Positions 55 to 3,501 of a stretch of DNA of 38,598 bases are shown in pieces. The position numbers and the translations under genes are program-made. Position 1 is the stretch's first letter; each line of letters begins with the position of its first letter. The notes under the pieces were generated by a model, which saw only the letters and a list, made by a program, of their open reading frames with translations, searched no databases and was not told the origin of the DNA. Source of the stretch: an uncultured Syntrophobacterales bacterium (GTDB lineage: Bacteria; Desulfobacterota; Syntrophia; Syntrophales; UBA5619); contig CAIYSL010000055.1 of the NCBI GenBank assembly GCA_903928915.1, forward strand, positions 1 through 38,598. Direction: 5' to 3'.

Positions 55-66
55 AGGGGAGCGCGT

Positions 67-172
67 CAGGGGGCGGAACCCGTCGCCGCTCAGGATCTTT
101 TTCCGACCCTGCACATCCTCGCTGCGCTGCCGGGAAAAAACTCCGAATCGCGGCAACGGGTCCCGCCCCCTG
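67..172. repeat. Long imperfect inverted repeat (hairpin) between guaA and carB
   Basis: Positions 67-89 and 150-172 are reverse complements over 23 bases with only two mismatches. The enclosed 60 nt can pair further (T5CC at 98-104 with GGA5 at 133-139), so the whole 106 nt could fold into one extended hairpin. It starts 13 nt after the guaA stop. It has no clean U-tract, so it is not a classical terminator. It could be a miniature inverted-repeat element, an RNA-processing signal or an attenuator for carB; the sequence does not decide between them. Confidence 0.75.
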
Positions 173-193
173 CCGCGGCCGTAGGTGGGAACA

Positions 194-279: not shown

Positions 280-3501
<3,222 letters not shown>

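Follow-up and report, generated by a model that had tools for sequence, protein, structure and literature searches.

A hairpin between guaA and carB in an uncultured Syntrophales bacterium as a probable worn copy of a small mobile element whose arms drift yet keep pairing

Short hairpin-forming mobile elements whose sequence is transcribed into mRNAs have been described before; in the portions of the literature drawn on here, they are represented by Correia/NEMIS, ERIC, and YPAL (PMC2229807 and PMC10969869). According to extracts of the same papers, transcripts of Correia/NEMIS (Neisseria) and ERIC are cleaved by RNase III or RNase E (PMC10969869), and YPAL/RU-2 of Yersinia is a palindromic, mobile, intergenic element of about 168 bp, said to be co-transcribed with upstream genes, with target duplications of 3 to 26 bp and internal inverted repeats (PMC2229807). 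The Chunjie MITE of Geobacter uraniireducens is summarized as being 178–235 bp long, with inverted ends and direct repeats, and as having tens of intergenic copies, one of which lies inside a phosphate-uptake operon (PMC10969869); the title of the original report announces that operon structure is not disturbed (Chen et al. 2008, cited in PMC10969869). REP sequences are given as 20–40 bp long in the section consulted (PMC3733652).

We analyzed a stretch of 38,598 nucleotides from an uncultured Syntrophobacterales bacterium (the window), which opens in the last codons of guaA. The guaA stop codon TAG lies at 52–54, carB occupies 280–3501 (NCBIfam NF003671), and a hairpin starts 7 nt past the guaA stop. 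A first-pass annotation had described a 23-bp imperfect hairpin, and its arms (67–89 and 150–172) indeed pair at 21 of 23 positions; pairing extends to 62–89 and 150–177, where 25 of 28 positions are Watson–Crick paired, and this is the longest inverted repeat within the 38.6-kb window at arm distances of up to 150 nt. Folded alone, 62–177 reaches −66.6 kcal/mol versus −43.2 ± 3.6 for shuffled sequences (z = −6.44), with 0 of 200 shuffles as good. No terminator was found 3′ of the hairpin. Between the hairpin and carB, what had been called a perfect palindrome at 194–221 turned out to consist of a pair of perfect 10-nt arms separated by 8 nt; this interrupted A/T-rich palindrome is found at seven places in the genome when up to three mismatches are allowed, with none in the control.

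The hairpin belongs to a dispersed family. When 56–236 was used as a query against its own genome (4.34 Mb in 141 contigs), we found 23 matches including the window, most of them on a core at 88–143; two of the 23 correspond to the 194–221 A/T palindrome, another is the right arm as found in a variant contig, and a further one covers 23 nt in another context. In full copies, the core is conserved and is accompanied by a nested inner hairpin and by outer arms. The two outer arms of any one copy complement each other, yet they are mostly unrelated to the arms of other copies; cores match at 81–93% between loci while the arms differ. A covariance model built from nine long copies (R2) has 81.9% of its cells paired versus 73.6% after shuffling, and two-sided changes at 36 pairs versus 20.1. 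At E ≤ 0.1, R2 gave 27 matches in the genome, one being the opposite strand of another, which leaves 26 places with the window included.

We then asked how widespread the family might be. R2 matched 35 of 61 relatives at E ≤ 0.001 (own genome counted), 61 of 149 genomes of the class at 1e-8, with all listed matches in the same order, 15 of 198 genomes of the phylum at 1e-8, and 7 of 60 genomes in another class at 1e-6; opposite-strand R2 matches score 39–46 bits, and matches below about 60 bits, which form part of the phylum and other-class sets, may largely reflect shape. Among named genome contigs, a 29-base core pattern occurs in 10 stretches, titled Syntrophobacterales, Syntrophaceae, Syntrophales, or Deltaproteobacteria MAGs. 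The family is spread through the order Syntrophales, with matches elsewhere in the phylum. Its apical motif (ACTC...CTCARACA on a three-base bulge) is found by exact pattern in 88 of 101 copies and is present in 16 of 17 distant copies. At L221, L222, and L226–L228, from the other class, the hairpin layout is the same, the stem sequences are quite different, and the arms are very long; the apical motif and the 3′ inner loop (CAATG.NGC) look common with the family. Searches of Rfam at gathering threshold gave no match in the window and six loci, a permissive Rfam search of five other loci with full copies gave only matches far below threshold, and no family match was found in plasmid sequences.

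The guaA–carB site itself is variably occupied. Within the order, 78 of 80 genomes have CarB; at the 30 loci read, guaA is directly upstream in 22 and not in 7, with one not parsed. Among the 22 guaA-adjacent spacers, 13 are 1–18 nt long (including that of the congener G002, 1 nt), 3 contain the element, and 6 are other inserts or spacers. Spacer reading and model matches together place the element between guaA and carB in eight genomes from three families (the window, G001, G012, G013, G015, G020, G027, and G090), with guaA confirmed for two, and it is absent from this site in G002 and G010. The assembly has another contig, C128, whose carB is 93% identical over 886 nt; there (L120, about 886–1215), an unrelated palindrome (TTGGGGTCAGG...) stands in place of the left half of the hairpin, the right arm is kept, and a short antisense family copy lies ahead of carB. 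The G001 spacer contains an additional copy in antisense, with similar arms (L126:1906–2085). In G090, a 134-aa ORF lies between the element and carB (L105:1976–2380, − strand); its by-eye likeness to GIY-YIG was dismissed, as it gave no Pfam match at threshold.

Relatives also provide evidence of mobility. Recent copies in G031 have sharp ends, GAGA[CG]CTTTGAAAA...CAAAG[GC]TCTC, with short direct duplications on both sides. The terminal inverted repeats GAGA[CG]CTTTG are present in copies of G031 and G189, where the end motif was counted 69 and 103 times, versus 2 and 5 times for the reversed pattern. In 23 copies with both ends, we found target duplications of 5–6 bp in nine and of 4 bp in one, when shuffled flanks predict 0.48 copies at ≥5 bp and 0.51 at ≥4 bp. 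G023 has ten near-identical copies, arms included. In the G023 copies (L068, L171–L179), the hairpin is followed on the right by a conserved tail several tens of nucleotides long, and several have a left flank with a GGATTTCAAATCC-like palindrome. Among the G031 positions of the end motif, no autonomous or transposase partner was seen, and no pair of ends lies 1–2 kb apart. Overall, the family displays 1) many dispersed short copies, 2) terminal inverted repeats and target duplications, both in fresh copies of relatives, and 3) filled and empty sites, as between guaA and carB, which bears out the earlier suggestion of a mobile miniature element and is what is expected of a MITE. In the window copy, neither GAGA[CG]CTTTG ends nor a usable target duplication could be recognized, and 66–72 nt of core, apical motif included, are missing relative to four syntenic copies (Table 1). 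The window copy is likely what remains of a small mobile element after wear and internal shortening, and the loss of its apical part has probably left it immobile.

Table 1. Parts of the hairpin in the guaA–carB spacer (window coordinates)
Feature	Position	Strand	Evidence
Left (5′) hairpin arm	62..89	+	Pairing with 150–177
Retained 5′ strand of family core, CTCAGGATC...CTCGCTGCGCTGCCGGGAAAAAACTC	90..143	+	81–93% match to other copies; aligned with syntenic copies
Internal deletion junction ACTC|CG	140..144	+	66–72 nt of four syntenic copies missing, apical motif included
3′ core strand remnant CGAATC	144..149	+	Comparison with syntenic copies
Right (3′) hairpin arm	150..177	+	Pairing with 62–89
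Family model R2 match, 56.3 bits	66..173	+	Covariance model search of own genome

We consider it likely that the window hairpin is a degenerate copy of a hairpin-shaped, non-autonomous, MITE-like element, whose full copies are about 180–240 bp long. A transposase acting in trans would move the element as DNA, and copies would survive best where they are harmless, often between a stop codon and the ribosome-binding site of the next gene. Arm pairing would be kept mainly at the DNA level, either because one arm is copied from the other across the hairpin or because the folded DNA is recognized, and not by selection acting on the mRNA helix. If read into the guaA–carB mRNA, the window copy would still have to form a very stable hairpin, which may affect processing or stability as a side effect and not as the reason for its presence.

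The genomic context of the copies was determined for 100 loci, in which R2 gave 111 matches; once 5 opposite-strand matches, 2 same-place repeats, and 3 weak second copies were dropped, 101 remained. In this set, which is biased because it is the best-scoring one and whose neighbors were called by a simple codon-usage gene caller, 57 copies are sense to both neighbors, 19 are against both, 10 sit where the neighbors converge and 5 where they diverge, and 10 could not be assigned. In co-directional spacers, sense copies exceed antisense copies (57 versus 19, p = 1.5e-5). Many copies start close to the preceding gene, at most 18 nt past the stop codon in 44 of the 70 with a sense upstream gene; YPAL, too, reportedly inserts just after stop codons (De Gregorio, 2006). 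The sense excess and the starts near stops are as compatible with a role in RNA as with harmless insertion. Five neighbor pairs in the genome were named by Pfam, and several are likely operon partners, namely ilvB|ilvN, acyl-CoA dehydrogenase|carboxyltransferase, meaB|cobO, and lipid A acyltransferase|heptosyltransferase.

The unusual trait of the element is that copies change their letters while the two arms remain complementary. Across the seven complete syntenic copies, the share of paired cells is 93.1% versus 81.8% after shuffling, 56 cells show two-sided changes versus 19.8, and slid controls reach at most 0.155 versus 0.349, in a structure that was derived from one of the seven sequences and so favors paired cells. 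Identity between genomes is 0.41–1.0 for the arms, 0.30–0.78 for fourfold sites of guaA and carB, and 0.66–0.93 for the core, which exceeds fourfold-site identity in 21 of 21 syntenic pairs, narrowly in some; the silent-site values of G020 carB are unreliable (amino-acid identity of 0.66–0.81, a probable frame problem) and those of its guaA are sound. Arm sequence thus changes about as fast as silent sites while pairing persists, and the core is held, which could point to a host function. Single mismatches inside the stems comprise 51 G·U and 77 A·C, with no difference between sense (38/53) and antisense (7/11) copies. Since terminator hairpins were too few to serve as a control, we used tRNAs of the same genome, in which stems have 19 G·U and 2 A·C (31 of 32 tRNAs, two stems each), a comparison weakened by the differing methods of counting; hairpins elsewhere in 40 loci give 31 G·U and 27 A·C, close to the element. 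Because G·U is the expected half-way state when an mRNA structure is selected, the lack of an excess is read as maintenance at the DNA level, and pairing seems to be kept there and not by RNA selection. Plain arm-to-arm copying would erase asymmetric inner loops; since these loops and the apical motif persist, the core is probably recognized by something.

What might do so is suggested by a reading that we put forward tentatively and think improbable, namely that this is mobile DNA read by shape: the apical motif and the asymmetric inner loop, kept across the phylum, would be recognized by a mobility protein on a folded single strand or cruciform, the rest of the stem being free in sequence and forced only to pair. 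Integron attC sites, which are unrelated to the element, are comparable in logic. A somewhat different fate, which we find rather doubtful, is that an element of mobile origin was domesticated and selected in operons (guaA–carB, ilvB–ilvN) as an intercistronic hairpin for mRNA processing or stability, be it an RNase III or RNase E site or a barrier to 3′ decay. Such a role would account for the retention at guaA–carB in eight genomes, the higher conservation of the core relative to silent sites in syntenic pairs, the strong two-sided changes there, and the 57-to-19 sense excess with starts 5–18 nt past stops. It sits poorly with a sense strand that has no G·U excess (38 G·U, 53 A·C) and behaves like the antisense copies, with the absence of the element from G002 and G010, and with the broken hairpin of C128.

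Locus-specific arms around cores that match at 81–93% could also arise if the core inserted into pre-existing terminator-like palindromes. We judge this very unlikely because the empty guaA–carB spacers (1–18 nt) hold no palindrome, the G023 hairpins were copied whole, arms included, and the inner stems covary too. Least probable of all is a riboswitch or attenuator specific to carB. The position of the hairpin in the carB leader and its high stability speak for this reading, and a cis-acting RNA controlling carB had been suggested in the first-pass annotation. Yet copies adjoin unrelated genes (ilvB–ilvN, meaB–cobO, and lipid A genes), the window and eleven loci with full copies have no Rfam match at threshold, no terminator follows the hairpin, and close relatives lack it, the congener having a guaA–carB spacer of a single nucleotide; in the variant contig C128 (93% identical), this hairpin has lost its left half. 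A carB-specific regulator is therefore not supported.

On the preferred MITE-like reading, an unlisted repeat family would be present inside core operons of Syntrophales and of further genomes in the phylum. Its syntenic hairpins form a natural series in which the arms diverge at about the silent-site rate and stay paired without the G·U signature of RNA selection. This series makes the arm-matching mechanism of long inverted repeats testable, as copying across the hairpin versus recognition of folded DNA, and it indicates that strong two-sided covariation alone need not imply a functional RNA.

How does this family compare with known systems? Our literature search, which covered parts of the relevant papers, recognized no description of it; Geobacter genome papers list "multicopy nucleotide sequences" in supplements outside that search. 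REP sequences with Y1 (RAYT) transposases are, as far as the source goes, palindromic, extragenic, and dispersed like the element and are shorter, at 20–40 bp; membership in REP/RAYT was rejected, as no Y1_Tnp (PF01797) was found in the genome. Judged by description only, Correia/NEMIS and ERIC resemble the element as short hairpin mobile elements and differ in having TA at their ends (PMC2229807, in part). YPAL, again by partial description only, is similar in size range and in being palindromic, mobile, and intergenic, whereas the element has target duplications of 5–6 bp instead of 3 to 26 bp and inverted repeats that are terminal instead of internal. The nearest known system by description is Chunjie, whose host Geobacter presumably belongs to the same NCBI phylum as Syntrophales. 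As described in the extract, Chunjie shares with the element its size, inverted ends, direct repeats, tens of intergenic copies, and insertion in an operon; that description says nothing of arms that are free in sequence yet stay paired. The element may thus prove to be of the Chunjie family, or it may be a further variant of the known hairpin mobile elements.
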